Below are positions 2,924 to 19,512 of a DNA stretch of 64,000 bases, piece by piece (the stretch's first letter is position 1; the number at the start of each line of letters is the position of its first letter). This stretch comes from Rosistilla carotiformis (GTDB taxonomy: Bacteria; Planctomycetota; Planctomycetia; Pirellulales; Pirellulaceae). The notes under the pieces are model-generated. The model was not told where the DNA came from. It saw only the letters and a program-made list of their open reading frames with translations, and searched no databases. The stretch lies in NCBI RefSeq assembly GCF_007753095.1, contig NZ_CP036348.1, positions 2,232,001 through 2,296,000 on the forward strand, written 5' to 3'. The position numbers and the translations under genes were made by a program.

Positions 2924-4858
2924 ATGAGTGACTACATAAACCCGGCCCTTCGACCGCGACGCGGATCGACATTGAAGGTGCTAACCATTGAACGAATTAG
3001 TACCGAGCACCAAGACGAACGAGCCCTCGATGATCAACGGGCAAAGTCGAAACGCCTCGTTACCGACCAGTTCGATGGCAAGATTGACTGGAAGAGTATT
3101 TCAAGCCGCGGTAGCGGCGAGGTCATCGACCGCGACTCTTACCGCGAGATGGAGGATTTGATCGATACGGGTTGGCCCGATTTGATCGTCGTTGAAGACC
3201 TTGGGCGAATTTGCCGTCGGCTTGACGCTCTTCGAATTTGCGAACTCTGTGAAGACTTCGAAACCAGGTTGATCGCCATCAACGACCACGTCGATACGTT
3301 CAAGTCTGATTGGAAGACGTCCGCGATGTTTTCCACGCTGCACCACGAGCGGCATAACCAGGATACTTCCGATCGAATCAAGCGGACTTTTCGCAATCGA
3401 TTCTCGGAAGGCTCGATTTTGGTTGTCTTGCCCTACGGTTATGTTCGTGCTGAAGGAGCCAAGAACGACAACGACCTTTCGAAAGACCCGGATGCAGAGA
3501 AGGTTTACAACCGTTGGTTCGAGATGCTTGACGATGGCGCCTCGTATTCTGAAATCGCTGATTGGCTCAACGACCAGCGGGTCCCAACGGGGCCTGGGTG
3601 CCGCCTAGAAACTTGGTCACCCGCTATGGTTTCACGCATCACTCATAATACGCTTTTAAAAGGTTTTCGGCGTTGGAATCGCCGCGTATCAAAGCGAAAC
3701 AATCGGACCGGTAAGCGGCGTTCGGTGACCGCGTCAGAAAAGGATCACTTGACGCGGCAATGTGAGCATTTAGCGTTCATCGAACCGACTCGGTATGATC
3801 GCATTTTGCGCAAGATCGATCGCAAGAATGCCAAGTATCGTCGTGGAAAGCAGCATGCAAAGGACAAACGCGAGGGAATGCCCCGTTCACGAACGGTCTG
3901 GCCAGGTCAGAGTATGTACTGCGGAATTTGCGGTCGCGTTCTGTATTACGGGGCTCATGGCCAATCTCAGAATCTGATGTGTAAGGGAGCGATCGAATAC
4001 AAATGCTGGAACGGAGCGAGTGCCAATGGCCGGGATACGTCTCGGCGGATTTGTGAATCGGTTATAGAACTGGTTAAAAAGCTTCCAGAATTTGACGAAG
4101 TGCTGATGAATGAAGTCGAGAACCAAGTTCAACAGTTAAACGAAAATGCAGGAGGACGTCTTCAAGAAACACGTCGTGATCTAATTCGTGTCGAGCGGGA
4201 AATAGAGAGCGTTCTCACTTTTATTCGCTCCGGCAGTAGGTCTCGCGCGGTAGAGGTCGACTTGGTTCGGCTTGAAAGTCGCCAGGCTGACTTAACGGAT
4301 GAGCTCCAGTCACTGCAAGAGTCGTCGCAAAGCAACATCGTGGTGCCATCTGTCGATGAAATTCGATCACGGGCTATCGATATTTTCAAATCGAGCCTTC
4401 CAGATCCTCAATTTGGTCGTCTTATGAATCAGTTCATCGAAGACCTTGTCGTTCTCCCGGTTCAATTGATTGATGGTGGCAGGGTCGGCTTGCGAGCCAC
4501 TTTCACAGTTAACTTGCTTTCTCTGATCGAAGGCGAACCATTGTCGAAGATGCTCGACGTCGATGTGATGAAGCACCACCGGACAGTCGACCTCTTTGAA
4601 GTACCTCAACGAGTCAAGTTTATGGCCGAAGTTGCCCGACAAAGCAAACTGAACGGCGAATCCGGACCTGAGCTGACCGAACGTGAGATTGCGGAGCGTC
4701 TCAAAATCACGCAGCCTGCGGTGCAGCGTGCAAAGCGTCTCTATCGCGAAATACGTCAGCGTGGACTCGACGATCCATATCAGGTTCTGACGGCCCCGCC
4801 AGCGGAAGGTAAGCTACGCCGACATTTACATCCTCGCTATCGATTTGACCCACTTTAG
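2924..4858 (+). CDS. Large serine recombinase
   Basis: A 644-residue protein that would catalyse site-specific integration and excision through a Ser-DNA link. The N-terminal resolvase domain has the nucleophile Ser26 in TIERISTEHQ. A recombinase domain follows (roughly 150-270), then a zinc ribbon from about 332 with CGICG and a second Cys pair, a long coiled coil (about 400-480) and a C-terminal HTH (EREIAERLKITQPAVQRAKR). This is the usual architecture of large serine integrases. I prefer ATG 2924 over an in-frame GTG at 2882 because it starts just before the conserved domain. It may be the integrase of the gene run that follows, although no att duplication was found by eye. Confidence 0.9.
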   Translation: MSDYINPALRPRRGSTLKVLTIERISTEHQDERALDDQRAKSKRLVTDQFDGKIDWKSISSRGSGEVIDRDSYREMEDLIDTGWPDLIVVEDLGRICRRLDALRICELCEDFETRLIAINDHVDTFKSDWKTSAMFSTLHHERHNQDTSDRIKRTFRNRFSEGSILVVLPYGYVRAEGAKNDNDLSKDPDAEKVYNRWFEMLDDGASYSEIADWLNDQRVPTGPGCRLETWSPAMVSRITHNTLLKGFRRWNRRVSKRNNRTGKRRSVTASEKDHLTRQCEHLAFIEPTRYDRILRKIDRKNAKYRRGKQHAKDKREGMPRSRTVWPGQSMYCGICGRVLYYGAHGQSQNLMCKGAIEYKCWNGASANGRDTSRRICESVIELVKKLPEFDEVLMNEVENQVQQLNENAGGRLQETRRDLIRVEREIESVLTFIRSGSRSRAVEVDLVRLESRQADLTDELQSLQESSQSNIVVPSVDEIRSRAIDIFKSSLPDPQFGRLMNQFIEDLVVLPVQLIDGGRVGLRATFTVNLLSLIEGEPLSKMLDVDVMKHHRTVDLFEVPQRVKFMAEVARQSKLNGESGPELTEREIAERLKITQPAVQRAKRLYREIRQRGLDDPYQVLTAPPAEGKLRRHLHPRYRFDPL

Positions 4859-4895
4859 CAGGCGAGGAAACCTTCCAACCCGCTTCATATTTTAT

Positions 4896-4925
4896 GCCCC
4901 GCTGGTCATTGGCCGCGGGGTTTTT
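4896..4925 (+). terminator. Rho-independent terminator after recombinase
   Basis: CCCCGC pairs with GCGGGG and is followed by TTTTT. It lies 38 bases past the recombinase stop and separates it from the small-gene run beginning at 4948. Confidence 0.75.
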
Positions 4926-4947
4926 CATGCGCTAACACGGAAACAAG

Positions 4948-5088
4948 ATGAAAGACCGACCAAAAGCTGCATCACGGGATCGTGGATCGATCCTTCGCAA
5001 AATCTTGCGCTTGGTGGCTCGGCGAATTGCCGAGGAGATCGCTGCCAAATCAGATGCGAGCAAGACCAAGAGCGAAATTACCAGATAA
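4948..5088 (+). CDS. Small basic hypothetical protein
   Basis: A 46-residue reading frame from ATG to TAA with many Arg and Lys and an amphipathic helix (LRKILRLVARRIAEEIAA). It is the first possible gene after the recombinase terminator, in the direction of the Ubl cassette genes. Length alone gives weak support; the helix-like composition suggests coding. No family recognised. Confidence 0.35.
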   Translation: MKDRPKAASRDRGSILRKILRLVARRIAEEIAAKSDASKTKSEITR

Positions 5089-5103
5089 TGCGTGGCATAT
5101 TCC

Positions 5104-5208
5104 ATGAATGGCCGCTTCTTGTTTGGGCGTCGCCGATGGATCCAAATTGAAGCCCAGAACGCGTCATATATAGACAGAGAAATCAATCAGCATCCTCAAT
5201 TTATCTAA
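5104..5208 (+). CDS. Small hypothetical protein
   Basis: A 34-residue frame beginning MNGRFLFGRRRWIQ and ending before the strong ribosome site of the next gene. It is basic at the start and polar at the end. An overlapping alternative frame of 20 codons begins at 5088, directly at the stop of the preceding small gene. Support is limited to its position within a dense gene run. Confidence 0.3.
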   Translation: MNGRFLFGRRRWIQIEAQNASYIDREINQHPQFI

Positions 5209-5243
5209 CTCTTTACCAGGAAAAGGAGGTGCCTATCGCTTAC

Positions 5244-5474
5244 ATGTTCATGGTGGCTATTAGCGGCGCACTGCTTGTTGCTGTGCTCGCCTTGGCCCGA
5301 GAGCGTCGACTGCGACTCGGCCTGCAAGCCATTTTGAATCGAATTCTCGAACAATGGAGGCAACATGCCAAAACTGAAGACGGTCCTGGTCGTGGCCATC
5401 GTCAGCCTCGCCGCAGGCGGATGTCGGGACGACGAAAACAGACGACTTGCCGAAATGGCGGAAAGGAATCTTGA
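5244..5474 (+). CDS. Small membrane protein
   Basis: The strong ribosome site AAAAGGAGGT at 5221-5230 decides the start at ATG 5244. The first 18 residues form one membrane segment (MFMVAISGALLVAVLALA), followed by a basic region. The frame runs 110 bases into the next gene, so its real C-terminus may be shorter or the overlap genuine. Function unknown. It adjoins another membrane-anchored protein at the head of the operon. Confidence 0.45.
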   Translation: MFMVAISGALLVAVLALARERRLRLGLQAILNRILEQWRQHAKTEDGPGRGHRQPRRRRMSGRRKQTTCRNGGKES

Positions 5475-5934
5475 GCGACAAGCTCAGCAGGAGATTCGCA
5501 ACACGGAGTTGCAACGCCAAATCGCTGAAGGAACCAAGCGGCTCGTCGAAGCCGATGCCGCCGCACGCGAGGACATGATCGGTCTGCATCGCGATGTTCA
5601 GTCGGAACGTTCTGAACTCGGGAGGCAACGAGACTTGCTGGAACATGACCGCCGTGATGTTGCCAACTCAAGAAATCGAGCCCCGGTGATTGCGGAAGCC
5701 ATCAAAGCCGTTGGTTTGATGCTTGCATGTACCGTTCCGCTATTAATCGCTTGGCAAGTTCTACGCCGCAGTGACCAGGCGGATGAGAACATGGCAATTG
5801 CCGAACTTCTGCTCGCAGAAATCAATTCGCCGACTCCAAAGCTGATCACGATTCATGACCGCACTGATCGCGACAGGTCCGAAGAACTTCCACGGATTGG
5901 CGACAGACCGACAAGTCAAAGCGATCGCAACTAG
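5365..5934 (+). CDS. Coiled-coil lipoprotein/membrane protein
   Basis: A 189-residue protein with GGAGG upstream of its ATG. The N-terminus has a signal and a lipobox-like AAGGC (Cys20). Residues 25-105 are a charged heptad-rich coiled coil, 108-130 form a membrane segment (AIKAVGLMLACTVPLLIAW), and the tail is hydrophilic. This topology would anchor a stalk at the membrane. It stands immediately before the DUF1257 gene (31 bases between them), suggesting cotranscription with the Ycf35/Ycf46 pair. No known family. Confidence 0.55.
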   Translation: MPKLKTVLVVAIVSLAAGGCRDDENRRLAEMAERNLERQAQQEIRNTELQRQIAEGTKRLVEADAAAREDMIGLHRDVQSERSELGRQRDLLEHDRRDVANSRNRAPVIAEAIKAVGLMLACTVPLLIAWQVLRRSDQADENMAIAELLLAEINSPTPKLITIHDRTDRDRSEELPRIGDRPTSQSDRN

Positions 5935-5965: not shown

Positions 5966-6334
5966 ATGTCACACGTTGTGACGATTGAGGCACAGGTGCG
6001 TGATCCAGAGGCATTACGGTCATCGTGCCGTCGCCTTGGCCTTGACGCACCGGTGCATCAAACCATCAAGCTGTTCACCGCCGAGGCAACTGGACATTGC
6101 GTCCAGCTCCCTCGATGGCGTTACCCCGTTGTCTGCGATACCGACAGCGGCGTGATTCACTACGACAACTACGGAGGTCATTGGGGTGAACAATCCGAGC
6201 TCGACAGATTGGTCCAAAGATACGCGGTGGAGAAAACGGTCATTGAGTCTCGGAAACAGGGATACACGGTGACCGAGCACACTCTCGCGAATGGATCGAT
6301 CAAGCTGAGCGTCCAAGTTGGAGGTGCAAATTGA
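5966..6334 (+). CDS. DUF1257 (Ycf35) family protein
   Basis: A 122-residue protein starting MSHVVTIEAQVRDPEALRSS with AAAGGAG before its ATG. It shows the hallmarks of DUF1257/Ycf35: an N-terminal VTIxxQVRD strand, LPRWRYPVVCD, a YDNYGGHWG segment, the helix RLVQRYAVEKTVIE and a closing GSIKLSVQVGG. Ycf35 is encoded by red-algal plastids and cyanobacteria and has no established biochemical role. The next gene starts on a TTG overlapping its TGA stop, so the two are translationally coupled. Its linkage to a Ycf46-like ATPase gene nearby is notable. Confidence 0.85.
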   Translation: MSHVVTIEAQVRDPEALRSSCRRLGLDAPVHQTIKLFTAEATGHCVQLPRWRYPVVCDTDSGVIHYDNYGGHWGEQSELDRLVQRYAVEKTVIESRKQGYTVTEHTLANGSIKLSVQVGGAN

Positions 6335-6525
6335 AAATAATCAACATCGTCATCTCTCCGAGTGGCGTGACCAAGATCGAGACGGTCGGTTTTGTCGGTA
6401 GCGAGTGCCGCGTCGCTAGTCAGTTTCTTGAAACGGCACTGGGGAGACGAGCTTCGGAGCGACTCACCACGGAATTCCATTCCTCTCAGTCCAGCAATAA
6501 CACTCAAACACAAAAAGAAGGATGA
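6331..6525 (+). CDS. DUF2997 family protein
   Basis: A 64-residue protein starting on TTG that overlaps the upstream stop. MKIINIVISPSGVTKIETVGF and GSECRVASQFLETALG match DUF2997, a small family of unknown function usually found beside DUF1257. The C-terminus is polar and probably disordered. The stop overlaps the next start (ATGA). Confidence 0.75.
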   Translation: MKIINIVISPSGVTKIETVGFVGSECRVASQFLETALGRRASERLTTEFHSSQSSNNTQTQKEG

Positions 6526-6734
6526 CCGCCCGCGAGTTGCATCACCAGCGTCCTGGTGAAATGCCCTGGCAGCGGCTAGCCCGTCGTTCGCAAAGCCGAA
6601 TGGCGAATCTCGCGAAGCGATGGCTCAAAATGGTTGCCGTCGAGCACATGACGTCCACCCTGCTGGCAGAACGTGACCCAAACGGCGAAATCTCGTCTTG
6701 GATGTGGGCGATCAACGACCTGCTGGCATCCTGA
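6522..6734 (+). CDS. Small hypothetical protein
   Basis: A 70-residue basic helical protein whose ATG overlaps the stop of the DUF2997 gene. It has three Trp and many Arg, with no signal or membrane segment. It sits between DUF2997 and the AAA+ ATPase and is probably a partner of one of them. Family not recognised. Confidence 0.5.
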   Translation: MTARELHHQRPGEMPWQRLARRSQSRMANLAKRWLKMVAVEHMTSTLLAERDPNGEISSWMWAINDLLAS

Positions 6735-6759: not shown

Positions 6760-8253
6760 ATGAAACTATCCGATCGTTTGGAGGAATTGGTGAAAGCCTG
6801 TTTCACCGGCATTTGGATCGAAAGTCACGAGCACGACGATGCGTTGCTCGAAATGAAGCAACTTTGTCGTGAGAACGACTGGCGGCTGGTGAACTGGGAC
6901 ATCGACCAGGGTCTGCGGATCAACGGAAGTCCGCTCGGTGACGATGACGGGACGACCGACCCGCTATCCGCAATTCGCTCGATGCGTTCATTCGCTGGCG
7001 ATGACACGCCGTCGATCGTCGTATTGACGAATTTTCACCGCTTCCTCAGTTCCGCCGAAATCATGCAGGCGTTGGCGCGCCAGCTCGTTAACGGCAAGTC
7101 AACTCGAACGATCTTTGTCATCCTATCGCCGGTAGTCCAGATCCCGACGGAACTGGAGAAACTTTTCATCGTCATCGACCATCCGTTGCCGACGCGCGAA
7201 CAACTCAAAGAGATCGCCGAGGGCATCGCCACCGAAGAGGGGGAACTCCACGGTGCCGACGGACTCGAAACCGTGCTGGATGCCGCGATGGGGCTGACTC
7301 GTTTGGAGGCTGAAAATGCATTCGGATTGAGTCTGGTTCGTGATTCCGTAATCCAGCCGGAATCGGTTTGGGAACTGAAGGCGAGCATGCTCAAAAAGTC
7401 CGGCCTGCTTCAACTATACAAAAGTAGCGACGACTTCACATCGCTCGGCGGGCTCGACAGTTTGAAGGCATTTTGCAAACGCTCGCTGCTTCAACATGGG
7501 CGTGACAACCCGTTGAAACGCCCTCGCGGCGTGTTGTTGTTGGGGGTTCCAGGAACCGGCAAGTCGGCATTCGCCAAAGCACTTGGCAAAGAGACCGGAC
7601 GTCCCACGTTGATCCTCGACGTCGGGGCTTTGATGGGGAGTCTTGTCGGCCAAACGGAGCAAAACGTTCGGCGCGCGCTGAAAATCGCCGACGCCATGGC
7701 TCCCTGCATTCTATTCATCGACGAGATCGAGAAGGCTCTGAGCGGGGCGGCGGGCTCGGGTCAAAACGATTCGGGTGTGTCCTCTCGCATGCTGGGCACG
7801 TTGCTCAGTTGGATGAACGACCATACCTCGAACGTCTATCTGATTGCGACCTGCAACGATATCACGCGGATGCCTCCGGAACTTTCCCGTGCCGAGCGTT
7901 TTGACGGAATCGTGTTTTTGGATCTGCCCCAGCGTGACCAGAAGGACCGAATTTGGAACCAATATATCACCATGTTCGGGCTAGAAGCGGAGCAAAAGCG
8001 TCCGGCTGATGATAAATGGACCGGCGCAGAAATCCGTGCCTGTTGCCGGTTATCTGCGTTGCTTGATATTCCACTCTCACAAGCGGGGCAGAACGTGGTT
8101 CCCGTGGCAGTAACGGCAACCGAATCGGTGGACCGTTTGCGTCAATGGGCCAGCGGACGTTGTTTGGATGCGGAGAAGTCGGGGATCTACCAACACGATG
8201 CCAAACCCCAATCACGAAGGCGGGTGTCGCGTTCCAATCCGTCTCAGAATTGA
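6760..8253 (+). CDS. Ycf46-like AAA+ ATPase
   Basis: A 497-residue ATPase with AAGGAGA before its ATG. Residues 1-220 form a degenerate, P-loop-like N-terminal domain typical of Ycf46. The active AAA+ domain carries Walker A GVPGTGKS (262-269), Walker B CILFIDEIEK (Asp321, Glu322), a sensor region with LIATCNDI and an arginine-finger region RAERFDG. RPRGVLLLGVPGTGKS and ILDVGALMGSLVGQ are strongly Ycf46-like. It is expected to remodel or unfold a protein partner with ATP. Next to DUF1257/DUF2997 it recreates the Ycf35-Ycf46 association of plastids and cyanobacteria, and downstream lies a ubiquitin-like cassette that it may serve. Confidence 0.88.
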   Translation: MKLSDRLEELVKACFTGIWIESHEHDDALLEMKQLCRENDWRLVNWDIDQGLRINGSPLGDDDGTTDPLSAIRSMRSFAGDDTPSIVVLTNFHRFLSSAEIMQALARQLVNGKSTRTIFVILSPVVQIPTELEKLFIVIDHPLPTREQLKEIAEGIATEEGELHGADGLETVLDAAMGLTRLEAENAFGLSLVRDSVIQPESVWELKASMLKKSGLLQLYKSSDDFTSLGGLDSLKAFCKRSLLQHGRDNPLKRPRGVLLLGVPGTGKSAFAKALGKETGRPTLILDVGALMGSLVGQTEQNVRRALKIADAMAPCILFIDEIEKALSGAAGSGQNDSGVSSRMLGTLLSWMNDHTSNVYLIATCNDITRMPPELSRAERFDGIVFLDLPQRDQKDRIWNQYITMFGLEAEQKRPADDKWTGAEIRACCRLSALLDIPLSQAGQNVVPVAVTATESVDRLRQWASGRCLDAEKSGIYQHDAKPQSRRRVSRSNPSQN

Positions 8254-8304: not shown

Positions 8305-9249
8305 ATGAGCATCATGCTCGAAGATCCTGTGACCCAGAATCACTCATCGCACGGAACGCGGCTGCAAGCCGAAACGACCGCCGTGCGATTGCACATCCGC
8401 TGGCCGGGCACTCGCAAGAGTCTCAGTCGCGATCAGAAACAACAAGCTGCCGGAGCGTTCGACGCCGATATCCGCACGCTCTCTGCAGCCAAACGTCTGT
8501 TCGACACGTCGCATCCGTCGTTCCGTGCCGTCTCGGCGATTAAAACGAAAGCGGGTTCCCTGTGGAAAGGGATGACGTTGCCGTACATCGAACCGGGCGT
8601 CCGGTTACTGCGACGGGGTGACGTTTCGGAATTCGATGATCGCATGATCGTCATCCAAGGCGATCTTGGCGAAGCTGTTGGCGAGCTCGACCGTTGCTTC
8701 GCGGAACTCGTCGATCAAGCCCGCACGCAACTTGGGCACTTGTTCGATCCAGCTGACTATCCCACTTCAGTCTCGGACCTGTTCGCGTTTTCGTGGGATT
8801 TTCCATCCGTCACACCACCTGCGTACCTGCGAACGGTGAATCCTGAGCTTTACGAGCAGGAGTGCCAGCGAGTGCAGGCGAAATTCGCTGAAGCGGTTGA
8901 ACTGGCCGAGCAAACGTTCGCCGAAGAACTCTCGCAGCTAATTGGTCATTTGGCCGAGCGATTGTCCGGTTCGGTGGACGGCAAACCGAAAGTCTTTCGC
9001 GATTCGGCAATCTCGAATTTGAACGAGTTTTTCGAGCGATTCCAGCATCTCAGCATTGGCAGCAATGACGATCTCGACCAATTGGTTGAAAACGCACGGC
9101 AAATCATCAGTGGCGTCGACCCGCAAGACTTACGAGACCGTTCGTCGATGCGCGATCGAATGGCTCGCTCCCTGACGGAAGTGGAAACGAGTCTCGATGA
9201 ACTCATGACCGATCGCCCGCGCCGAAACATCATTCGAGGCCCACGGTGA
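8305..9249 (+). CDS. Conserved-looking hypothetical protein, helical
   Basis: A 314-residue protein with AAGGAGA before ATG 8305. It is soluble and strongly helical after residue 100, with coiled-coil-like stretches at 190-215 and 285-305. A basic N-terminal segment (RWPGTRKSLSRDQKQQAAG) precedes HPSFRAVSAIKTKAGSLW. I do not recognise the family. Its GGTGA junction with the next gene indicates translational coupling. Placement between the AAA+ ATPase and the Ubl suggests a substrate or adaptor, which is inference only. Confidence 0.6.
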   Translation: MSIMLEDPVTQNHSSHGTRLQAETTAVRLHIRWPGTRKSLSRDQKQQAAGAFDADIRTLSAAKRLFDTSHPSFRAVSAIKTKAGSLWKGMTLPYIEPGVRLLRRGDVSEFDDRMIVIQGDLGEAVGELDRCFAELVDQARTQLGHLFDPADYPTSVSDLFAFSWDFPSVTPPAYLRTVNPELYEQECQRVQAKFAEAVELAEQTFAEELSQLIGHLAERLSGSVDGKPKVFRDSAISNLNEFFERFQHLSIGSNDDLDQLVENARQIISGVDPQDLRDRSSMRDRMARSLTEVETSLDELMTDRPRRNIIRGPR

Positions 9250-9503
9250 GTGCCATTGAATGGGTCGTGACCACCAACGGGGAAACTCGAATGGTCTTCG
9301 ACGACCGCGTCGATCTTCGCTCGGTCGGCCGGATATCAATCCAGCGCGGATCGCATGTTGAGCCGACGCTCATCGGTCATTGGACGGCCGATCTCTCACC
9401 AGTCGGCGGACCGATCCTCGGTCCGTTCGACAAACGAAGCGAAGCCTTGGAGGCAGAGGTCTCTTGGCTTCATCGGAATTGGCTCATTCGGTCCACCGGA
9501 TAG
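9246..9503 (+). CDS. Small hypothetical protein
   Basis: An 85-residue protein on a GTG start that overlaps the preceding TGA. It appears to be a compact beta-rich domain (IEWVVTTNGETRMVFDD, then HWTADLSPVGGPILGPFDKR) ending in a helix. No family recognised. It is the last gene before a hairpin at 9533 that may attenuate transcription into the Ubl half of the cluster. Confidence 0.55.
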   Translation: MSAIEWVVTTNGETRMVFDDRVDLRSVGRISIQRGSHVEPTLIGHWTADLSPVGGPILGPFDKRSEALEAEVSWLHRNWLIRSTG

Positions 9504-9603: not shown

Positions 9604-9822
9604 ATGAACCAGAACGACCTCAATCGTGCCGTGGCAGCCGCCACCGGCGAAACCATCTCGGCGATCAAACGCATCGGCTTTTTGATCAGCGAACCCAATG
9701 AACCCTTCGATGACCCGACCGATCCCGTGCACGGCGGCCGGGTCATCGACTGGGACGATTTCGAGTTCCTTCAAGATGAACCAGATGACAGTTGCTTCAT
9801 TCCCGAAGCCGCAATCGGCTAA
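9604..9822 (+). CDS. Small acidic hypothetical protein
   Basis: A 72-residue, strongly acidic protein preceded by GAAAGGA. The N-terminal helix (MNQNDLNRAVAAATGETISAIKRIGF) resembles a small HTH-like segment, and the remainder is Asp/Glu/Pro-rich (NEPFDDPTDP, DDFEFLQDEPDD). It opens the second transcript segment of the cluster, just before the Ubl gene. Function unknown; it could be a small adaptor. Confidence 0.5.
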   Translation: MNQNDLNRAVAAATGETISAIKRIGFLISEPNEPFDDPTDPVHGGRVIDWDDFEFLQDEPDDSCFIPEAAIG

Positions 9823-9826
9823 TTCG

Positions 9827-9985
9827 ATGAAACCCCATCGCAATCAGCCATTCTTCTTTGTTGCGAAACGCCGACGCTTTCCCGTTCGTGGACAGCGGCG
9901 GCTTCGCTTTCCGAAACGCAAAACGTTTTTCCAAAACCCCAAACCTAAGAGAGTCAAACATGAAAGTACTTTTGATTTCCAATGA
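9827..9985 (+). CDS. Very basic small ORF overlapping the Ubl start
   Basis: A 52-codon frame, rich in Arg/Lys/Phe, that overlaps the first 26 bases of the Ubl gene. It has no clear ribosome site. It may be a leader peptide tuning Ubl translation, or no gene at all. Listed because it fills the gap before the Ubl. Confidence 0.2.
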
Positions 9986-10181
9986 CGCTGGTGGATACGC
10001 ACACAACGTCGAGGCACCCGATGGGACAACCGTCCAACAAATGTTCGAACGACACATCGGTTCGTTCCATGCGGATAGCTATCTGATCCGCGTTAATCGC
10101 CAACCCGCGAGCGCTGACCAACCGCTTCGCGATGGTGACCGCGTTTCGTTCACGCCACTGAAGATCGAAGGTGCCGCCTGA
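9960..10181 (+). CDS. Ubiquitin-like beta-grasp protein (MoaD/ThiS type)
   Basis: A 73-residue protein. The strand [12 protein letters not shown], the helix [12 protein letters not shown], the strand [11 protein letters not shown] and the closing block [16 protein letters not shown] follow the MoaD/ThiS/ubiquitin beta-grasp layout, including the typical LxDGDxV turn. The C-terminus reads Gly-Ala-Ala instead of Gly-Gly, so it could be used after trimming by the adjacent JAB peptidase or through an unusual terminus. Start ATG 9960 is chosen because the domain begins there; an upstream in-frame start at 9858 would add 34 unrelated residues. It is predicted to be the modifier of the E1/E2-like genes that follow. 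Confidence 0.75.
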
Positions 10182-10263
10182 TTTTTGTTTTCATTGTCTG
10201 GTCGGGGTGGTTGGTTTTGCAAGTAGCTACCCATCCCGACTCGGCTTCCCTTGGAGCAAATCA

Positions 10264-11292
10264 ATGAAGAACGAAATCAAACAAGACTACCGAACGGCAG
10301 TCGATATCATGCACGCTTTGCAAGGCGTTCGCACGCCAGCGCAGCTCTCGGCTCTCGACGACTCAGTCGAACAGTGCAATCGTTGGCGGCGACGACTTGC
10401 CATCGCTTCCGAACGCAATTGGCAGGCCGCCGCAATAGACTCAGCTGACCGACTTCGTGGGTCACTCGACATTTTGCGAATCCGTTCAGAACACGCGATC
10501 GAAGAATTGAAGAGAACGGCAAACACTCGCATTGAACCGACTGCGACTTCAATCTTTCGTGACATCGAGGGCTTGCGTGGCGAATTTGAGGGTGTGTCGA
10601 TTGACCGGGCCAACCAGCAATTGACGGTCCGGACATCCAGCATTGTGCTGGAGTCCGTTGAACTCGGCAGCTTCGAGATTCGATTGAACTGGAAGCACAT
10701 CAAGGATTCGTCCCCCTTCGATGTTGTTGCGGTAGCCCCCAATTGCTGCGCCGCGAACGATACCGTCACGCACCCGCACGTGCAAGGCGATTCGCTTTGT
10801 GAGGGTGAAGGTGCCGACGCGATCCGACGTGCGCTCGACGAAGGCCGTTTGTTCGATTTCTTTTGCATCGTCGATCATGTGCTCCGCAATTACAACGCGG
10901 GATCGGCGTACGTGCATATTGAAAACTGGAACGACATCAACTGCGAATCCTGTGGCGACAGCGTCGAATCTGGCGAAGTCTTTGGCTGCTGCAATTGTGA
11001 AACCGAGCTGTGCTTGGATTGCAGTTCGTGCTGCGAATCCTGCTGTGATCGTTACTGCAGCGACTGCAGCTCAAGCTGCGAAAGCTGTGGCAACGAAACA
11101 TGTCAAACGTGCCTGAAGTCGTGTGACGACTGTGGCGAATCTTTCTGTACCTCATGTCTCTTTGAAGGAACCTGCGATGATTGCATCACCAAGCAAAACG
11201 AAGCAAATGAAGACGACGATGAATCAACGAACGAACCACCGAAGCCTGCGGTTCACTCCCTACGCGATGGCAAAGTTGCTCTACCTGCGTGA
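10264..11292 (+). CDS. Predicted E2-like (UBC fold) protein with Cys-rich RING/treble-clef-like tail
   Basis: A 342-residue protein, start ATG 10264 after TTGGAGC. Residues 1-100 are helical. Residues 115-225 resemble a UBC fold: strands [19 protein letters not shown] and PFDVVAVAP, then His170-Pro171-His172, a Gly, and Cys179 nine residues after the His, as in the HPN...C active site of E2 enzymes. Residues 227-307 contain over 20 Cys, mostly as CxxC pairs in an alternating pattern, consistent with several zinc-binding treble-clef or RING-like units. An acidic tail follows. I infer an E2 that carries its own E3-like module. Its 3' end overlaps the JAB gene. The family assignment is mine by motif and needs a profile search. 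Confidence 0.6.
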
Positions 11293-11854
11293 CATCGGCC
11301 CCACCGAAGTCGGAGGATTCGGCATCTCCAGCGCCAGCGATCTGTTGCTCGTTGAAGACATTCAGCTTGTCGAACAAGTTTGCTCGGTTGTCTCGGTCGA
11401 GTTCTACGACGACAGCGTTGCCGATTTTTTCGACAAGCAGGTTGACGCCGGTCGGCAACCCGAACAGTTCGCAAGAATCTGGATTCACACTCATCCAGGT
11501 GCGTCGCCGTCTCCAAGCGGCACTGATGAAGAAACGTTTGATCGTTGTTTCGGTGGAGTCGATTGGGCGGTGATGCACATCATCGCCGAGGAGGGTAACA
11601 CCTACACGCAAGCCCGCTTCAACGTCGGCCCCGGCACCGAACGACGCCTGCGGTCGTGCGTCGAGTTCGATCGCGAATTCCCCGCAGCCGATCACGAAGC
11701 ATGGTTCATTGAATACTGTGACAACGTGACGGTTTACGATCCATTTTCCTCGCGTCACACCTTCGCTGATACTTACGACGAGTCGGATTGGTGGGAGCAA
11801 AATCCGTCGGCAACCGATCGCTGGAGCGACAATCTCTTGGGGGCGATCAGTTGA
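11177..11854 (+). CDS. JAB/JAMM metallopeptidase (Mov34/MPN family)
   Basis: A predicted zinc isopeptidase of 225 residues that would mature the Ubl or remove it from targets. The JAMM signature is complete: Glu44 in EVGGFG, then His104-Thr-His106, Ser114 and Asp117 in [14 protein letters not shown] (HxHx7Sx2D). The start at ATG 11177 has GAAGGA 8 bases upstream; later starts at 11207 and 11219 have weaker sites. It overlaps the E2-like gene by 116 bases and its TGA overlaps the TTG start of the E1 gene. The C-terminal 60 residues are acidic and aromatic with no known domain. Confidence 0.88.
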
Positions 11855-12573
11855 ACGCGGCTCAGAATCGTTTTGAACGTCAAAGCCAACTGGTCCCGAT
11901 GGACCGGTTGGCTGAAGTCACCGCAACGGTGATCGGCGTTGGCGCGATCGGTCGTCAAGTTGCGTTGCAACTCGCGTCGATCGGAACGCCACGAATCCAG
12001 TTGATCGACTTCGATAACGTCGACTTGTCCAACACGACAACGCAAGGCTACCGAAAGCATGAGGTTGGATCGGCGAAAACGTTTGCCACGTCGCAAGCCA
12101 TTGGCGAAATTGATTCAACGATCGATGTCATTCGAGTGGAGGACCGTTTTCGACCACGCCAAGAGATCGGTAACACAGTGTTTTGCTGCGTGGACTCCAT
12201 CGCCGCTCGATCTGCAATCTGGCGTTCGGTAAAGTCGCGTGTGGGGTTCTGGGCCGATGGCCGGATGCTTGGCGAAGTGCTGCGAGTCCTAACGGTCACC
12301 GACAGCAAGTCCGAAGCTCTTTACGCTTCAACACTTTTCGCCGCATCCGACGCCCAGCAAGGAACTTGCACGTCACACAGCACGGTCTACGCCGCCAGCA
12401 TCGCAGCGGGATTGATTGTCCATCAGTTCACGCGATGGCTCCGCGACATCCCAACCGACGCCGACACCAGCGTCAATTTGCTATCCGGCGAATGGACCGT
12501 CCAAGACGCTTCCTTACGAAACGAACAGGGCACAAGCTTTCACCGAGGCCCCAGCCCCAACTCGTATTCGTAA
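11851..12573 (+). CDS. ThiF/MoeB/E1-like adenylating enzyme
   Basis: A 240-residue enzyme expected to adenylate the Ubl C-terminus and pass it on as a thioester. It has the nucleotide-binding GVGAIG (29-34), the acidic pair LIDFDNVD (Asp53, Asp55), Lys76 in EVGSAK and CCVDS with Asp115, all typical of E1-like Rossmann domains. A candidate catalytic Cys is Cys173 in GTCTSHS. The usual Arg of the SNLxRQ motif is replaced (SNTTTQ), and MoeB/ThiF-type CxxC zinc pairs are absent. TTG at 11851 is chosen because it overlaps the JAB stop and starts right before the domain. Confidence 0.85.
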
Positions 12574-12733: not shown

Positions 12734-12778
12734 GTGGCCGCCCTTCGGGGCGGCCACTGCGTTCACCTTTTTTTAGCT
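12734..12778 (+). terminator. Terminator of the Ubl cluster
   Basis: GTGGCCGCCC pairs with GGGCGGCCAC around a TTCG-type loop, and CTTTTTTT follows after a short gap. It lies 14 bases past the last cassette gene. The sequence from here to 12912 holds no gene. Confidence 0.65.
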
Positions 12779-12912
12779 ATCAGCGTTTGATTGGTGTTAG
12801 AGACAGGTTGCTTGAATTGGATCGCATCAACTGAAATCGAATCGAACATGCCATCTTCACGTGGTCCAGAAATTCAGAGGTCGATATCGCAAGCGAACCT
12901 AGTCGAAAAATT

Positions 12913-15900
12913 CTACGGATGGCGGTGCAGGAATCCAATCGCCTCAAATCCTTCATCCGCATTTATTCGCCGAACAGAATCGACCACATCACGACCATGG
13001 TAGGGATCGTCAATCAGTTCACTGAGCAAGGTTGCCGAATCCGCGTCCCCAACTCGCCCCAGCGCGTGAACAATGAAGGTTGTGAGTTCTCGTGGAGTCT
13101 GTCGATCGGGACAGCGTTTGTCGATTCGTGTAAGACTCTCTCGATTCTTGAATCCAAACTCCAGCAGATTGCGGAACTCTGGCAAGAACATTTTGAAAAG
13201 GCGGTTTGTAATCCTTCCATGGTCTGACTTGAAGGTCATGCTGGAAGCGTGGGCGAACTCTCGTAGCGGGTCGATAGCCTCGAACGCAAGTTCGGTCGAG
13301 AGTGCAGCCAAAATTGGCTCACTTCGTTCCCTCAGTTCATCTGGTGAGATGTCAGGTTTGCAAAGCCAGAAAATGAGCTCACCATATTTCTGCCAAGCAC
13401 GTCGATCGTCGTTGCTAAGGTCATCGAGACAGAATGGCTCGTCCACCAGAGCCGCCGAACCAGCATGTGCTGTGATAAAACAGGCCGTGCGATCCTGCGG
13501 CCCCATCGCTTCGTGATCCAAGGTGCGCGCATATTTCTCAAACGCCGGAAGTGCTTCAATGGACGCATTCTCTAACAGTCTTCCAAGCAACCAACCGCCA
13601 TTCATCGAATAGCCAGGCATTCCCAACGCGGCCATCACATAGACCTCGTATCTCTCAGATTCTGACAGCGACTCGATGGCTTGGTAGCACGCTTCATCAT
13701 TAATCGTGTCGAACATTCCTGAGACGATGTCATGAGCGATCGTTTGAGATTCCTCGTCATCGGGCGTCTCCAGTGCGTGAAGCAGTGATGTCTTGAGATC
13801 GTATGCCGATGTGGGATGTTCAAATAGTTCAAACGCGGTTAGCGCCTCGATCAATGGTGCGCCGAGGAACGGGTGCGATGGCTGGACTGTCCCGAGGTAG
13901 TTCTTTAACTCAGAAAGGTTCGGTTCGGCGATATTGCACCAATAGGCAACGCGGTAGAGGGCTTCCAACTGCAAATGGTAAATCTCGGATTCCCAGCAAA
14001 CCCTGAAGAAATCAGTCAACCGATCTTCGACCTGCGAAACATTCCACCGAAATTGAACAAGTGCAAAATACAGCTCCGCTGCGGAGTATTCCGTTGGTGA
14101 GCGCACAACTTCACAAATAGGTTCCGGTATTAAGTCCGCCTCGAAACTTGAGTAGCGATTACACGAAGCCCTAAGAATCGTTGATATGGGCAACGTGTCA
14201 CCGCGTCCGCCGAGGACACAAAGACGCGAAAACAGGACAGTCTTGACACTTGGTTTCGCAAGTACTTCAGAGCGGTATCGAAGTTGCAAACACTCGCTAA
14301 CCCGAGACTGTGTCATTCCAACGAGCCGCATGACATCGACGATTAACCATCCTGACGGCAGTCGTTCAGCTACCAAGTTCATCAGTCCGTATTCATACGA
14401 AGACCATTGCCGAGCGTTCAGTACGGTTGGCTCCAACGACGTACGCTCTCCATCGGACTTGTTAATTTCGATCTTCAAATCAATCTCGACCAAATCGGCT
14501 TCCGCGTCGCGTAGCATTTTAGCTGCGTCCTCGCGCACGATCTGTTTCGCCGACGCACCAAGATTTCCGTCAAACGCTCGCGATAGAACGGAAGGACCGT
14601 TCGTTTCGCAGGCGAGACCGAGAAGATCACGAATGTTGGAATCGTCCGTCTGACGATCAATTGCGAATTCGATAAGAGCGTGATGAACAGGCTTCCGAAG
14701 TTCAGCCTTAAGCACTTCAAAGCTGGTGACTGTTCGGCAAATCGCCTCCGACTCAAAGAACCTCTGTAGCATCTCGTGCCGAAATCCGCATTGGCCCTGA
14801 TCCAAGTCAATCACACCGCTGCTGACAATCTCATTTAGCAGTCTCGGTGGGATTTTCTCGCGTTCTGAAGCGATCTCAAATACATGGGTTAAGTCACTAC
14901 TGGAAAGACTCGTCCGAAGCTGAGCTTGCATTAGAGCCGCAAGTCCGCCAAAGACCTGCCGTGCCCAAATGACATCCGCCGGGCTATCGAATCGTCGTTC
15001 CAAAAAACGATTGAACAAATCACGCCGTGTCGAGGACTCACCAAGCTGTGAAAGGCATTCAGCAGCGATCGAAAGTTCGTAGCCAGAACGGAATGCAATG
15101 CAATTCTCAATTTCCTGTTTCGTGACTGCGCGACCTGCATGCTGTTTCAAAATTGCAACTCGTTGATCGTCCGTCAATTCCTGACATTCGATGACCGCTC
15201 CATTCAGTGCTGAAGGAAGCTCAATTCTCTGCTGCGCGCTCATCGCAATCTGCGTGCCATACCGAAGAAACAGTGCTTGCAGGTCAGCAAGCAATTGCTC
15301 TCTCAACCGGACTGGACACTCGTTGAAGCCATCTACCAGGATCGTTGGCGTTTCGCCGCGCCGCTGGGCCAATTCGATAAACTCGATCGCGCGCATCGGG
15401 CACAGATGTGAGACGCTACGATTCAGCAAGTCTGATAGTCTTCCTTGATATTTAGCTGCTGAGGCGAAAATGACCGGCTGTTTGTTAGTCGAAAGCTCTG
15501 TCCCCAGTCCGCGAAGAAGCATTGACTTGCCAAGTCCCGAGGGTCCGATGAGCTGAAAGTGTCGATTGTCGTCGATTCTGGAAATCAGATTTTCGGTCGA
15601 CAGTTCTTCATCGTCAATTCGTAGCGACGTTGGGACATGTTGCTGGTTGTCGATGCTACTCCATTCTTGGAAACGCTGGAGATATGTTTCAAGCACTTGC
15701 GCATCATCGTCAGCGGCGACCTGTTCAGGCGATCGGTCATCATGCCGAACCAGTCCGAGATACATCGCGAACTCAATCCATTTCTCATATGACCAGCCTG
15801 GACTCTTGTTGCCCGAGAGCAACAGCTTCAATAGCTCGGGATAACCGATCGTCTTGACCTTATAGTCGCTAACGACAACTGAATTCCGGTGGAGTTTCGG

Positions 15901-16314
15901 GTAGATGCAAAGGACTGATTGCATCTGCTTGTAGAACGGTTTCGCCGCCTTGTCCTGACCAGTGAAAGCACGCATCTCATCGCTAATCGCGAATTTGCAC
16001 TTCGTGGACTGGCCGTAAGGATTGTCGTGTTGTAGCGGCTGTCTTGACCCATCCGGCATCTGTATGTGCCAGGCCCCATTGGTGCCGCCAAAAATAGGGC
16101 AAGAAACGCATTTCAGCTCGACATGGCAAACAAAGCCATCGAGCACGACAAGAAAGTCGATCTGCGGTTCAGGTTTGCTACGCGGAAAGAAGTTCGCCAA
16201 AATGACCGCACGACGCCCGGCAGCTTCGAGGTCTGACGAAAGTTGACGTAGAAAAGCCATCTCCGATTCGATTTCGATCGGGTGGCCAACAAAGATTTCA
16301 GTTTTGATATTCAT
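12913..16314 (-). CDS. NERD nuclease-domain protein fused to STAND/NACHT-like NTPase
   Basis: A 1133-residue protein. Residues 10-170 form a NERD (nuclease-related, PD-(D/E)xK-like) domain with Asp53 in QIDFLVV and Glu66-Leu-Lys68 in HVELK. Residues 245-400 form a P-loop NTPase with Walker A LIGPSGLGKSMLL (about 252-264) and Walker B TILVDGFNE (about 320). The remaining 700 residues are helical and repeat-like, ending in HEAT-like units (DSATLLSELIDDPYHGRDVVDSVRRI). A nuclease effector, switch NTPase and long sensor fit the STAND-type antiviral layout. It sits head-to-head with the Wadjet operon, which supports a defence role, but no phenotype is known. The start ATG 16314 has no strong ribosome site. 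Confidence 0.75.
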   Translation of the reverse strand: MNIKTEIFVGHPIEIESEMAFLRQLSSDLEAAGRRAVILANFFPRSKPEPQIDFLVVLDGFVCHVELKCVSCPIFGGTNGAWHIQMPDGSRQPLQHDNPYGQSTKCKFAISDEMRAFTGQDKAAKPFYKQMQSVLCIYPKLHRNSVVVSDYKVKTIGYPELLKLLLSGNKSPGWSYEKWIEFAMYLGLVRHDDRSPEQVAADDDAQVLETYLQRFQEWSSIDNQQHVPTSLRIDDEELSTENLISRIDDNRHFQLIGPSGLGKSMLLRGLGTELSTNKQPVIFASAAKYQGRLSDLLNRSVSHLCPMRAIEFIELAQRRGETPTILVDGFNECPVRLREQLLADLQALFLRYGTQIAMSAQQRIELPSALNGAVIECQELTDDQRVAILKQHAGRAVTKQEIENCIAFRSGYELSIAAECLSQLGESSTRRDLFNRFLERRFDSPADVIWARQVFGGLAALMQAQLRTSLSSSDLTHVFEIASEREKIPPRLLNEIVSSGVIDLDQGQCGFRHEMLQRFFESEAICRTVTSFEVLKAELRKPVHHALIEFAIDRQTDDSNIRDLLGLACETNGPSVLSRAFDGNLGASAKQIVREDAAKMLRDAEADLVEIDLKIEINKSDGERTSLEPTVLNARQWSSYEYGLMNLVAERLPSGWLIVDVMRLVGMTQSRVSECLQLRYRSEVLAKPSVKTVLFSRLCVLGGRGDTLPISTILRASCNRYSSFEADLIPEPICEVVRSPTEYSAAELYFALVQFRWNVSQVEDRLTDFFRVCWESEIYHLQLEALYRVAYWCNIAEPNLSELKNYLGTVQPSHPFLGAPLIEALTAFELFEHPTSAYDLKTSLLHALETPDDEESQTIAHDIVSGMFDTINDEACYQAIESLSESERYEVYVMAALGMPGYSMNGGWLLGRLLENASIEALPAFEKYARTLDHEAMGPQDRTACFITAHAGSAALVDEPFCLDDLSNDDRRAWQKYGELIFWLCKPDISPDELRERSEPILAALSTELAFEAIDPLREFAHASSMTFKSDHGRITNRLFKMFLPEFRNLLEFGFKNRESLTRIDKRCPDRQTPRELTTFIVHALGRVGDADSATLLSELIDDPYHGRDVVDSVRRINADEGFEAIGFLHRHP

Positions 16315-16604: not shown

Positions 16605-18230
16605 TTGAGCCTGGAAGACATTGATCGAACTAGAACTCTAACGGGTGCATTGAACGCGGGGCGTGGTTGGATGGATGATGGGGCGGTTGACTGGCTTTGC
16701 TTTTCTTATCTGACGGCCGAGCGTGCGGTCGTGTATCGTGCGATTGTGGATGTCTTTGCGGCAGCGAAGGCAGAGTTTGCCTTGCATTTGCGGGCGTCGG
16801 AAGTCCAGTCGGAACTTGTGGTTCGCGGGACGTCGTTGGATCTGAGCGATGTCGAGTCGGCGCTTCAGCAATTGGAAAGCTGGGGGAATCTACAGTCGTA
16901 TCAGGACAATGCCGACGTTGCTTCGCTGACGGACTACTACCGAAAGCGGTTGCTGTATCAATTGAGTGCCAGCGGTGAGGCGGCTCATGCATCGACACTG
17001 ACGTTTACTGAACGATTGCAGCAACAGGCTAAGCTGGATGCTCGGGCGCTTGATCGTATCGCTGATGGTGCGGGGCAGCTTGAGCGATTGGCGATTCACT
17101 TGCGTGACGCAGATGAGAAAGACCCTGTTGTGACGCTGACGACCTTGCGAAGTATCTCGCAGGACGCGGACGAACTGACTTCTCGCGCTCAATCGTTTTT
17201 CCGTTGGCTGCACGAACAGACGGAATCGGACCGTGGGGACTTGGAAGCGTTTCTCGTCTACAAGCAACAATTGATCGACTACCTGCAACAATTCGTGAGC
17301 GAGCTGATTCTGCGAACGGACGAAATCGCTGGGAGACTTCGCCGAATTCAGGATTGGGAGTTCGAGCGGCTTGCCGAGATTGCTGCGACGGAAGAAGTCG
17401 GTGAGCCGCGTGCAGGCGAAGAGCAACAACATGAGCGTAGAATCTCCGATATGGCGATCCGTTGGCGTCAACGGCTGGCAGGTCTTCAAGGTTGGTTCAT
17501 GCAGCGTGAAGGACGCCCGCCTCAGTCGGACCAACTGCGAGCGGCTGCTCGCGCGGCGATCCCGCGGTTGTTGCAGCTAGCAAGTCAGATGAACGAGCGA
17601 CAATCTGGACGAAGTGATCGTGTTGCTGATTTGCGTGCTTTGGCGATCAACTTCTTGCAGGCTCGTGATGAAGCGCAGTCACATCGTTTGTTCCGTGCCG
17701 CTTTTGCTCTTTCACCCTCGCGGCATTTGCGGATTGACCCAAAGACGATTGACAGTCTCGATCAGAATCGTGTTCGTCCTGACACACGATGGATCGACGC
17801 CGAACCGATTGAAATGACACCGCAATTACGCGAGAAGGGACGGGCTCCCTCGGCTGCGGCAAACCGCCGGGTGACGGATCGTTCCGCCGAACGTGCGGAA
17901 CTGCAACGAAGACTGGGACGCGAGACGGGACGTGACGAAGCCTCGCGTGAAACGTTGGTCGCACTGGGACGCTGTCGGTTGTCGGAGATCGGTGGGCTGG
18001 ATCAAGAAGCGTTCAAGATGCTGCTTGGTTTGCTTGAACTGGCTGTTCCGAAAGGTGATGTCAGTCGTGTCACCGCAACGAGTCGCGATGGACGTTTGCG
18101 GATTGGACTGGAGATGGATTCGGGTCAAGAGCTGGATCGTGCCGACTCCAAGATCAATATCGCTCGCATTGACACGGAAGATGGGACACTCGTTTTGCAA
18201 GATGCTTGGATGGAGGTGACGCGTGTCTAA
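16605..18230 (+). CDS. jetA: Wadjet protein JetA (DUF2397/TIGR02677 family, kleisin-like)
   Basis: A 541-residue protein that resembles the TIGR02677 family: LFSYLTAE-type N-terminus (CFSYLTAERAVVYRAIVDVF), a helical middle with LRTDEIAGRLRRI, and a C-terminal KRxxR-rich part. In Wadjet, a plasmid-restricting SMC system, JetA is the kleisin that joins the SMC and KITE subunits. The start is uncertain: TTG 16605 gives the longest frame, but ATG 16671 lies right before the domain. Its stop overlaps jetB by 8 bases. Confidence 0.82.
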   Translation: MSLEDIDRTRTLTGALNAGRGWMDDGAVDWLCFSYLTAERAVVYRAIVDVFAAAKAEFALHLRASEVQSELVVRGTSLDLSDVESALQQLESWGNLQSYQDNADVASLTDYYRKRLLYQLSASGEAAHASTLTFTERLQQQAKLDARALDRIADGAGQLERLAIHLRDADEKDPVVTLTTLRSISQDADELTSRAQSFFRWLHEQTESDRGDLEAFLVYKQQLIDYLQQFVSELILRTDEIAGRLRRIQDWEFERLAEIAATEEVGEPRAGEEQQHERRISDMAIRWRQRLAGLQGWFMQREGRPPQSDQLRAAARAAIPRLLQLASQMNERQSGRSDRVADLRALAINFLQARDEAQSHRLFRAAFALSPSRHLRIDPKTIDSLDQNRVRPDTRWIDAEPIEMTPQLREKGRAPSAAANRRVTDRSAERAELQRRLGRETGRDEASRETLVALGRCRLSEIGGLDQEAFKMLLGLLELAVPKGDVSRVTATSRDGRLRIGLEMDSGQELDRADSKINIARIDTEDGTLVLQDAWMEVTRV

Positions 18231-19512
18231 ACGTGAACGATCGACCGCAGCAGATCGGCTTGCTCGGCGACAACGGGAAATTGAAGATGAAGAGCGGCGC
18301 GAGGCGATACGCATTCTGTTGAGTCAACCATTGGTACCCGCCGAGGGGCCAACGTCCGAATCGTTCCGGATGATTCGTCGCAACGCCGACTGGCTTAGGC
18401 CGTGGTTCCAGCGTTGGCCGGGCTGGACGCTAATTATCGCGGCCGATATTGCTCGATTGAGAAAACACCCTTCCCCAAGGCTCGATTCAACGCGCGGCGT
18501 CGTGGACAAAAGCGGTTCGGATCGCACGCAGTTTTCACGACGTCGATATGCACTGCTTTGCTTGGTGCTGGCAACGCTCGAGGGGGAGCAACGTCAAACC
18601 ACCTTGCAACAGGTCGCTCGCAAGGTCGAAACATCGGTTCGACTTGATGGACAGCTGCGTGAGTTAGATTTTGAATTTGAAACCAAGACATTGGCACATC
18701 GACGTGAATTAGTGTCCGTGATGCGATGGCTTGAGCGAATGCACGTTCTGGTGCGCGCCGATGGTGATGACAAGAATTATGTCACTGGCGAAAGTGATTG
18801 CTTGTATCGTGTTGACCGTTCGTGCCTAGCGACTTGCCTCTGTTCCATTCGTGGTGCATCGACGGTAGAGGCGAATGACACAGTCGAGATGATCGAGATG
18901 CTAAATGAGGCGGAAACACCGGAGGTACCCGAAGCACAGAACCGCGAATTGCAACACTTACTGGTCCGACGACTACTGGACGATCCGGTCATGTACTTTG
19001 ACGAGTTGACTCCGCGTGAATACGAATACTTCAACAGCCAAGGCGATCGGCTGATTCGAGAGTTAACCCGCGTGACGGGGATGGTTGCCGAGCGACGTGG
19101 CGAAGGAGTCGCGTTACTTGATCCGGGCGGCGGTTGGACTGACATCGGATTGCCGGAAACAGGAACGCGAGGCCATGCGACTCTCTTGGTTGCAGAATGG
19201 CTGGGAAACTTGTTGCGCGAGTGCGAAGACGTTGATTGCGTCGTTTCAATATCTGAATTGGAAGCTCATGTTGCGACGCTCGCCGAGACTCATGAAAAGC
19301 ACTGGCGAAAGGATAGCAACACTCCCGAGGGTGTTCGGCGAATCATGCGGGATGCGGTCGACAATCTGTGTTCGCTGGGATTGCTCGAAGTCTCGGGTGA
19401 GCGTCTGCAACCACGCCCGGCGATTGCGCGGTATCGACTCAATGAGGTGGTGCTGCCAAGCCCGACGGTGGAACCGCCCGTTCAACCGAGTCTGTGGGAG
19501 GCGGGTGAATGA
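18223..19512 (+). CDS. jetB: Wadjet protein JetB (DUF2398/TIGR02678 family, KITE-like)
   Basis: A 429-residue protein on a GTG start with GGAGGTGA directly upstream. It opens with a basic coiled segment (ADRLARRQREIEDEERREAIR), then winged-helix-like regions and the ALLCLVLATLEGEQRQTTLQQV block typical of TIGR02678. JetB is the KITE subunit that regulates the SMC ring. It overlaps jetA and, by an ATGA junction, jetC, so the operon is translationally coupled. The protein itself looks intact. Confidence 0.82.
   Translation: MSKRERSTAADRLARRQREIEDEERREAIRILLSQPLVPAEGPTSESFRMIRRNADWLRPWFQRWPGWTLIIAADIARLRKHPSPRLDSTRGVVDKSGSDRTQFSRRRYALLCLVLATLEGEQRQTTLQQVARKVETSVRLDGQLRELDFEFETKTLAHRRELVSVMRWLERMHVLVRADGDDKNYVTGESDCLYRVDRSCLATCLCSIRGASTVEANDTVEMIEMLNEAETPEVPEAQNRELQHLLVRRLLDDPVMYFDELTPREYEYFNSQGDRLIRELTRVTGMVAERRGEGVALLDPGGGWTDIGLPETGTRGHATLLVAEWLGNLLRECEDVDCVVSISELEAHVATLAETHEKHWRKDSNTPEGVRRIMRDAVDNLCSLGLLEVSGERLQPRPAIARYRLNEVVLPSPTVEPPVQPSLWEAGE

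Follow-up and report, generated by a model that had tools for sequence, protein, structure and literature searches.

Conservation and genomic context of a predicted ubiquitin-like conjugation cassette, with an E2-like core and a Cys-rich tail on one chain, in Rosistilla carotiformis

Operons that combine a ubiquitin-like protein (Ubl) with E1, E2 and JAB proteins are known from bacteria, where types 6a to 6e are described as sporadic and mobile (Iyer et al. 2006, PMC1779556). Related operons are reported from planctomycetes, among others (PMC4197634, citing Burroughs, Iyer and Aravind 2011), and with AAA+-coupled systems also on record (PMC7159879), the kind of system considered here is already known. 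We analyzed a 64,000-nucleotide stretch of the genome of the planctomycete Rosistilla carotiformis (NZ_CP036348.1, positions 2,232,001 to 2,296,000; below, the window), in which four adjoining plus-strand genes (window positions 9960 to 12573) encode a ThiS-like Ubl, an E2-like/Cys-rich protein, a JAMM peptidase and a ThiF-type E1. An earlier note, made from the sequence of the window, had recognized these four genes as one block; both the block, which proved to be conserved, and the coordinates given for the genes were confirmed. We consider it reasonably probable that they form a working module for Ubl conjugation and deconjugation, to which we assign no targets, and that a phage-like mobile gene block carries this module as one of its interchangeable components. 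That reading draws on the genes themselves and the folds predicted for their products, on residues that do not vary, on signs of purifying selection and on a unit that is duplicated and found in phage surroundings.

The second gene (10264 to 11292) encodes a single chain of 342 amino acids, made up of a helical N terminus (residues 1 to 90), a UBC-like core (approximately residues 90 to 226) and a tail with ten CxxC pairs (residues 227 to 307). Sequence profiles were blind to the UBC-like part: no E2-like family was found for the protein with Pfam (using 1 and 20 members), NCBIfam, PADLOC, PHROGs or hmmsearch against the PDB, and Prok-E2_B, an hhalign partner in only 1 of 149 genomes, was dropped. 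AlphaFold2 models of the protein reached pLDDT values of 82.9 and 82.0. Since a first VIA run on the model was filled mostly by helical matches to residues 3 to 90, the core was folded alone; for this core model, all 50 matches listed by Foldseek and 46 of the 50 listed by VIA were E2-type (by title in the case of Foldseek), with weak E-values. Residues ~90 to 226 are thus predicted to adopt a UBC fold (helix, beta-meander, helices), which bears out the E2-like segment that had been proposed for this protein.

Residues were compared across 48 to 51 sequences per gene, including those of the window and leaving out eight duplicate loci, with minimum lengths of 60 (Ubl), 280 (E2), 150 (JAB) and 180 (E1) amino acids. 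Cys179, whose conservation in orthologues the earlier note had made a test of its proposal, is present in 50 of 50 sequences, as is the motif His170-Pro171-His172, in which an invariant His replaces the Asn of the canonical E2 motif HPN. This replacement would suit a noncatalytic, Ubl-binding (RWD-like) scaffold with zinc modules, next to which the E1-Ubl pair would transfer alone or not at all, and so would the other four chains listed by VIA, which belong to Knl1/KMN and which we take to be RWD-type. Against such a scaffold stands the invariance of both HPH and Cys179 in a placement as in E2s, with a connecting loop one residue shorter than the spacing that we presume to be usual; we regard the scaffold as quite unlikely.

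Each of the 20 paired cysteines of the tail is kept in 45 to 50 of the 50 sequences. The tail starts with CxxC-x11-CxxC-x4-CxxC-x3-CxxC, which fits the spacing of a binuclear treble clef; the ligands are Cys throughout, and the array continues to ten pairs, enough for five zinc ions. Profile matches, of which MID1 (E = 0.0033) and TRAF3 (E = 0.0089) are examples, were weak. The description of the tail as RING-like therefore stands in part: spacing and weak matches speak for it, but its sequence predicts a longer, ten-pair CxxC array and not a canonical C3HC4 RING.

The first gene of the cassette (9960 to 10181) encodes the Ubl, 73 amino acids of predicted beta-grasp structure ending in KIEG-AA. 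Its assignment to the MoaD/ThiS type was upheld by a match to Pfam ThiS (E = 6e-4; 20.7 bits, below the cutoff of 22.5), by weak profile matches to MoaD/SAMP2 and by the invariance of Gly71 (48 of 48 sequences), which is followed by Ala72 in 46 of 48; in all 48 sequences, the Ubl is a separate short open reading frame (ORF). The JAB gene (11177 to 11854), which, read from its first ATG, shares 116 bp with the E2 gene, encodes a protein scoring 25.9 bits against Pfam Prok-JAB (cutoff, 25). All elements of a JAMM active site (Glu, HxH and Ser-xx-Asp) are present, with Glu44, Ser114 and Asp117 found in 51 of 51 sequences and His104 and His106 in 50, in line with the peptidase that had been predicted. 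The E1 gene (11851 to 12573; TTG start; 240 amino acids) overlaps the JAB gene by 4 bp, and the starts of both were chosen among alternative start codons. With 77 bits against Pfam ThiF and with the nucleotide loop, DxD, Lys and Asp of E1/ThiF proteins in place (Asp53, Asp55, Asn61, Lys76, Asp115 and the candidate catalytic Cys173, in GTCT, are each found in 49 of 49 sequences), its product is rightly called a ThiF/E1 protein of predicted activity. The canonical NxxRQ motif, however, is lacking: its Arg, known for its role in MoeB, is replaced by Thr64 in the window and by Thr in 47 of the 49 sequences, which weighs against a fully canonical E1. One further match to the E1 exists in the same genome (7.44 Mb, a single contig), covering residues 5 to 93 at 36% identity (E = 1.6e-5).

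A ThiS/MoaD-like Ubl and an E1 closest, in profile comparison, to ThiF/MoeB/UBA5-type enzymes would also be expected of a sulfur carrier or small-molecule system, in which a Ubl thiocarboxylate would feed a biosynthetic step and the JAB protein would process the Ubl. A scan of ten window proteins gave no rhodanese or sulfur-metabolism family, however, and the cassette includes a UBC-like protein whose Cys is invariant, making this a very unlikely explanation.

Of 199 family genomes, 25 have homologues of the E2 protein, often several copies each; this number includes the genome of the window, G006, where the gene is a broken fragment, and G072, where it is truncated. Among the relatives that carry one are Neorhodopirellula pilleata and two Rhodopirellula species, R. 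maiorica and R. solitaria. In a sample of 392 genomes of the phylum, 14 had a nearly full-length E2 protein, and in 16 more the Cys-rich part alone was matched. Three loci labeled Chloroflexota, Emcibacter and Hydrogenedentota bear labels of metagenome-assembled genomes and were not used as evidence of spread. Gene order was counted in 33 of 50 E2 copies, those with flanks of at least 6 kb upstream and at least 3.2 kb downstream (17 copies were dropped, and the eight duplicate loci and L068 were left out). In answer to a check that the earlier note had suggested, the order recurs in other planctomycetes, the Ubl gene lying directly upstream of E2 in 32 of the 33 copies and the JAB and E1 genes directly downstream in all 33. 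The cassette genes are under purifying selection: with the E2/JAB overlap cut away, the ratio of nonsynonymous to synonymous substitution rates (dN/dS) was 0.02 to 0.30 in 32 of 32 gene-pair comparisons, for part of which dS exceeded 1.

The four genes belong to a larger unit of 7 to 8 kb, which also holds DUF1257 and AAA+ genes with conserved partners and which is duplicated within genomes. Copies within one genome share sharply bounded stretches of 7.2 to 8.0 kb (L041/L045/L046 in G045, L048/L050 in G147 and L040/L043 in G111; the pair L042/L044 in G037, cut by a contig end, shares 5.8 kb), and copies in different genomes (L036/L037 and L047/L050) share 7.7 to 7.9 kb. The shared stretches begin just upstream of the DUF1257 gene or of the gene at 5365, and they stop in the last codons of the E1 gene or up to ~1.2 kb beyond it. 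Upstream of the cassette, and like it on the plus strand, the window carries a Ycf35-like DUF1257 gene (5966 to 6334; 24.0 bits, with a Pfam cutoff of 22.2) and a gene for an AAA+ ATPase (6760 to 8253; Pfam AAA, 111 bits) that we presume to be Ycf46-like and that matches phrog_8638 over residues 4 to 487 (E = 1.8e-83), each present in 27 of the 33 copies. These are followed by a conserved gene at 8305 to 9249 (28 copies; 65% mean column identity among 15 sequences), for whose product a profile search of the PDB yielded no convincing relative, a small conserved gene at 9246 to 9503 (28 copies) and, at the junction of the two modules, another at 9604 to 9822 (30 copies). The unit may start with a predicted lipoprotein with a later hydrophobic segment (5365 to 5934; 24 copies), for whose homologues a simple scan gave a lipobox in 20 of 31 and a transmembrane-like stretch in 31 of 31, an arrangement that, we assume, resembles that of unimolecular spanins. 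Between the DUF1257 and AAA+ genes, a 70-amino-acid ORF (6522 to 6734), kept in 11 of the 33 copies, matches part of a protein of ~231 amino acids in relatives (for instance, L074, positions 4786 to 5481), with longer copies elsewhere; by eye, this longer protein looks Toprim-like, with no Pfam match.

Toward its right end, the unit has a hairpin and TTTTTTTAGCTATCAG (12748 to 12786, plus strand), the latter lying at 12768 to 12783, after the hairpin, and occurring once in the genome. In 18 of the 50 copies, the 1.8 kb after E1 contain the motif of a T-run followed by AGC...CAG, against a background of 36 matches in the 1.22 Mb of all loci, overlapping ones included. Homology with the sibling genome G072, which retains a remnant of the unit (a truncated E2 gene and JAB and E1 genes with 78% and 89% identity; no Ubl match was seen in the remnant), stops at 12783, and the next homologous base is 29883 in the window, so that 17 kb with NERD/NACHT and Wadjet genes lie between the unit and the shared chromosome. 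A large serine recombinase (2882 to 4858, plus strand; Pfam Resolvase and Recombinase) was considered as a possible mover of the unit: the duplicated stretches end before its gene, 3 of 29 copies have a recombinase of its own type in the 9 kb upstream, and, of 51 loci with an E2 cluster member or with the window itself, 20 contain ORFs of the same recombinase cluster at some position. Nearby lies a partly palindromic repeat of ~100 bp (2463 to 2570); a search of three genomes of the genus showed it to be present in many copies. Neither promoter and terminator scans of the window (no excess over shuffled sequence) nor a search for Rfam families in it (none found) added further elements.

The tie between the cassette and a Ycf35/Ycf46 module, as first proposed, holds for those 27 of 33 copies but is not obligatory, the module also occurring without Ubl genes. 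Matches to the 8305 protein, some of them fragmentary, were found in 70 of the 199 family genomes, versus 25 for the E2 protein. Among these places, we picked by hand 20 loci without E2; all 20 have the 8305 and 9246 genes, DUF1257 and the AAA gene (the latter at least in part) occur in 19 and the 9604 gene in 16, and Ubl, E2 and E1 were matched in no case (a JAB match of 32% identity in one locus, L121, is invisible to Pfam). In 11 of them (L114 to L119 and L124 to L128), a beta-clamp-like gene lies within ~1.2 kb, its product having 374 to 483 amino acids in the five used as queries, with shorter matches in L114 and L117; in the other nine, no clamp match was seen. The assignment as beta clamp is that of a profile of six members, which matches DNA polymerase III beta clamps (21 of 22 matches up to E = 10 are clamps), with an E-value of 1.2e-4 for the best match as a whole and of 0.27 and 11 for its two stretches taken separately; Pfam and single-sequence phmmer found no clamp. 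A PD-(D/E)XK nuclease gene follows in L114, L124 and L127 and is also present in six distinct conjugation loci (L049, L053, L060, L061, L062 and L078). The AAA block, which occurs without the cassette and with other partners in its stead, is therefore the more constant of the two, and the conjugation module is one of the partners that can be exchanged.

Parts of both modules also occur in viral records. A viral contig of 31 kb (L070/L135/L136; about half of it read) carries E2, JAB and E1 genes whose products are 33, 43 and 43% identical to those of the window, with the genes preceding E2 cut off by the contig end. After E1 come genes for an exonuclease, NinB, a DnaB helicase, a Toprim-like protein and NinG, with those for a phosphoesterase and an endonuclease lying farther along; no terminase match was found in this contig. 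On a second viral contig (L069, a 70-kb record with a terminase match elsewhere), the whole unit lies between two serine recombinases. The complete phage Tunturi_3 has, in a different order, homologues of the AAA (E = 1e-56), DUF1257 (32.3 bits; cutoff, 22.2), 9246 (E = 6e-8) and 8305 (tblastn, E = 4e-23) proteins and no E2 match, and no E2 protein was found in the plasmid and phage records searched. In Flavobacterium phage FpV4 (KT876724), a JAMM-motif protein adjoins a ThiF protein related to the cassette E1 (E = 7e-25). Taken together, these contigs and phages place parts of both modules in phage gene clusters. Our hidden Markov models (HMMs) include the proteins of L070, so that scores on L135, part of the same contig, are circular and were not used; those on L137 to L139 are not circular and cover a small ORF set. 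As a side observation in FpV4 (L137, 1667 to 5678), one of the genes before the JAMM/ThiF pair encodes a protein whose N-terminal part, by eye, looks like a beta-grasp ending in KSGG.

Beyond the unit, the window has a defense-like neighborhood. At 12913 to 16314, on the minus strand, lies the gene for a defense candidate of 1,133 amino acids with weak NERD and NACHT matches, presumably Avs-like. It is followed by type II Wadjet genes jetA, jetB and jetC (PADLOC) and a DUF3323/DUF2399 gene, which we take to be as in jetD (16605 to 26480); a Tn5-type transposase gene (19977 to 21359) separates a short P-loop ORF (19509 to 19883) from the rest of jetC (21454 to 25224). The same conjugation chemistry could be host antiphage cargo, like BIL or type II CBASS, with infection triggering the tagging of phage or host proteins. 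An antiphage role of bacterial Ubl conjugation has been published (PMC10097602), and the patchy spread (25 of 199 genomes) and the adjoining NERD/NACHT and Wadjet genes agree with such a role; the partners in the alternative loci and viral records, however, are DNA-metabolism genes, and the AAA block itself is present in a phage, so that we consider defense cargo rather unlikely. Of three possible roles of the cassette, in DNA processes of the element itself, in its rivalry with other elements or in defense of the host, the first is favored by the company of DNA-metabolism genes and the last by the NACHT and Wadjet genes that adjoin it in the one genome considered here.

If the cassette works as a conjugation module, what is known of the protein families leads us to infer the following steps, in this order. 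The JAB protein would trim the Ubl precursor after Gly71 (KIEG|A), and the E1 would adenylate this Gly and take the Ubl on Cys173, from where the Ubl would move to the UBC-like core, on Cys179. The tail of the same chain, rich in Cys, may act as a built-in RING-like E3 or as a target-binding part. The JAB protein would later remove the tag, and neighboring AAA+/DUF1257 proteins would unfold or remodel the tagged assemblies. The AAA+/DUF1257 block carries either the cassette or a beta-clamp homologue (some with PD-(D/E)XK) and in L061 and L063 carries both, on which grounds one might imagine a phage or mobile-element pathway, with E2 and RING-like E3 on one chain, that tags DNA replication or recombination proteins, possibly a bacterial parallel of the ubiquitylation of the clamp PCNA; we give this idea little credence at present. 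A working module, with E2 and putative E3 joined in one protein, would need four genes and be of a size that can be rebuilt in the test tube, and it would tie bacterial Ubl tagging to phage-type DNA metabolism and not to defense alone. The swap of conjugation genes and sliding clamp behind one AAA+ block could offer an approach to the questions of what these mobile systems target and how E3 function evolved, and a cassette in a mobile block could reveal what protein tagging does for mobile DNA.

In the open-license literature, we recognized no description of an E2/Cys-rich single chain with a free Ubl or of a swap with a clamp; Burroughs, Iyer and Aravind (2011) reportedly describe prokaryotic RING/binuclear treble clef operons, and the exact layout may already be there. 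Three known systems were considered and set aside. For the PRTRC system, the E1 alone among ten window proteins was matched, at 29 bits (NCBIfam PRTRC_ThiF; cutoff, 144.75). BIL (BilABCD) has a tandem-Ubl BilA and a long E1 with a Cys domain (PMC11354881), as opposed to one 73-residue domain and 240 residues here, with just 22.8 bits for PADLOC BilD. Type II CBASS has a CD-NTase and an E2-E1 fusion, while E1 and E2 are separate genes here, the JAB protein scores 12.6 of 200 bits for Cap3 and no nucleotidyltransferase family was found by Pfam in the ten window proteins scanned. The FpV4 pair resembles the cassette in being a JAMM protein beside a homologue of the E1, and differs in the score of the former (16.6 of the 25 bits of the Pfam cutoff), in that no Cys-rich E2 was seen and in a Ubl-like neighbor recognized by eye. 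The Ub-E1-E2-RING-Rpn11 cluster of Caldiarchaeum is likewise minimal, combining the cascade with a RING-type component and a deubiquitinase of Rpn11/JAMM type (PMC5654768, PMC4197634), although it has a small separate RING gene and was reconstituted (PMC5654768). The FtsH-ternary systems count planctomycetes among their hosts and share AAA+ and helical proteins, JAB, E1, E2, a RING-type part and Ubl; as described, however, their Ubl is fused to E2 and EAD1, their RING is a separate gene and they include MoxR-vWA and caspase-like effectors, whereas the Ubl of the cassette is free-standing, separate in each of the aligned sequences, and its E2 is fused to the Cys-rich tail (PMC7159879). Types 6a to 6e have in common with the cassette an E1-like protein without rhodanese, an adjacent or fused JAB, an E2 with a conserved Cys and, in type 6d, a small Ubl with a C-terminal glycine; compared with what is described for them, the cassette has its E2 fused to a helical N terminus and a tail of ten CxxC pairs, its E1 and JAB are separate and it is preceded by a DUF1257/AAA block in place of the different partners named there (PMC1779556).

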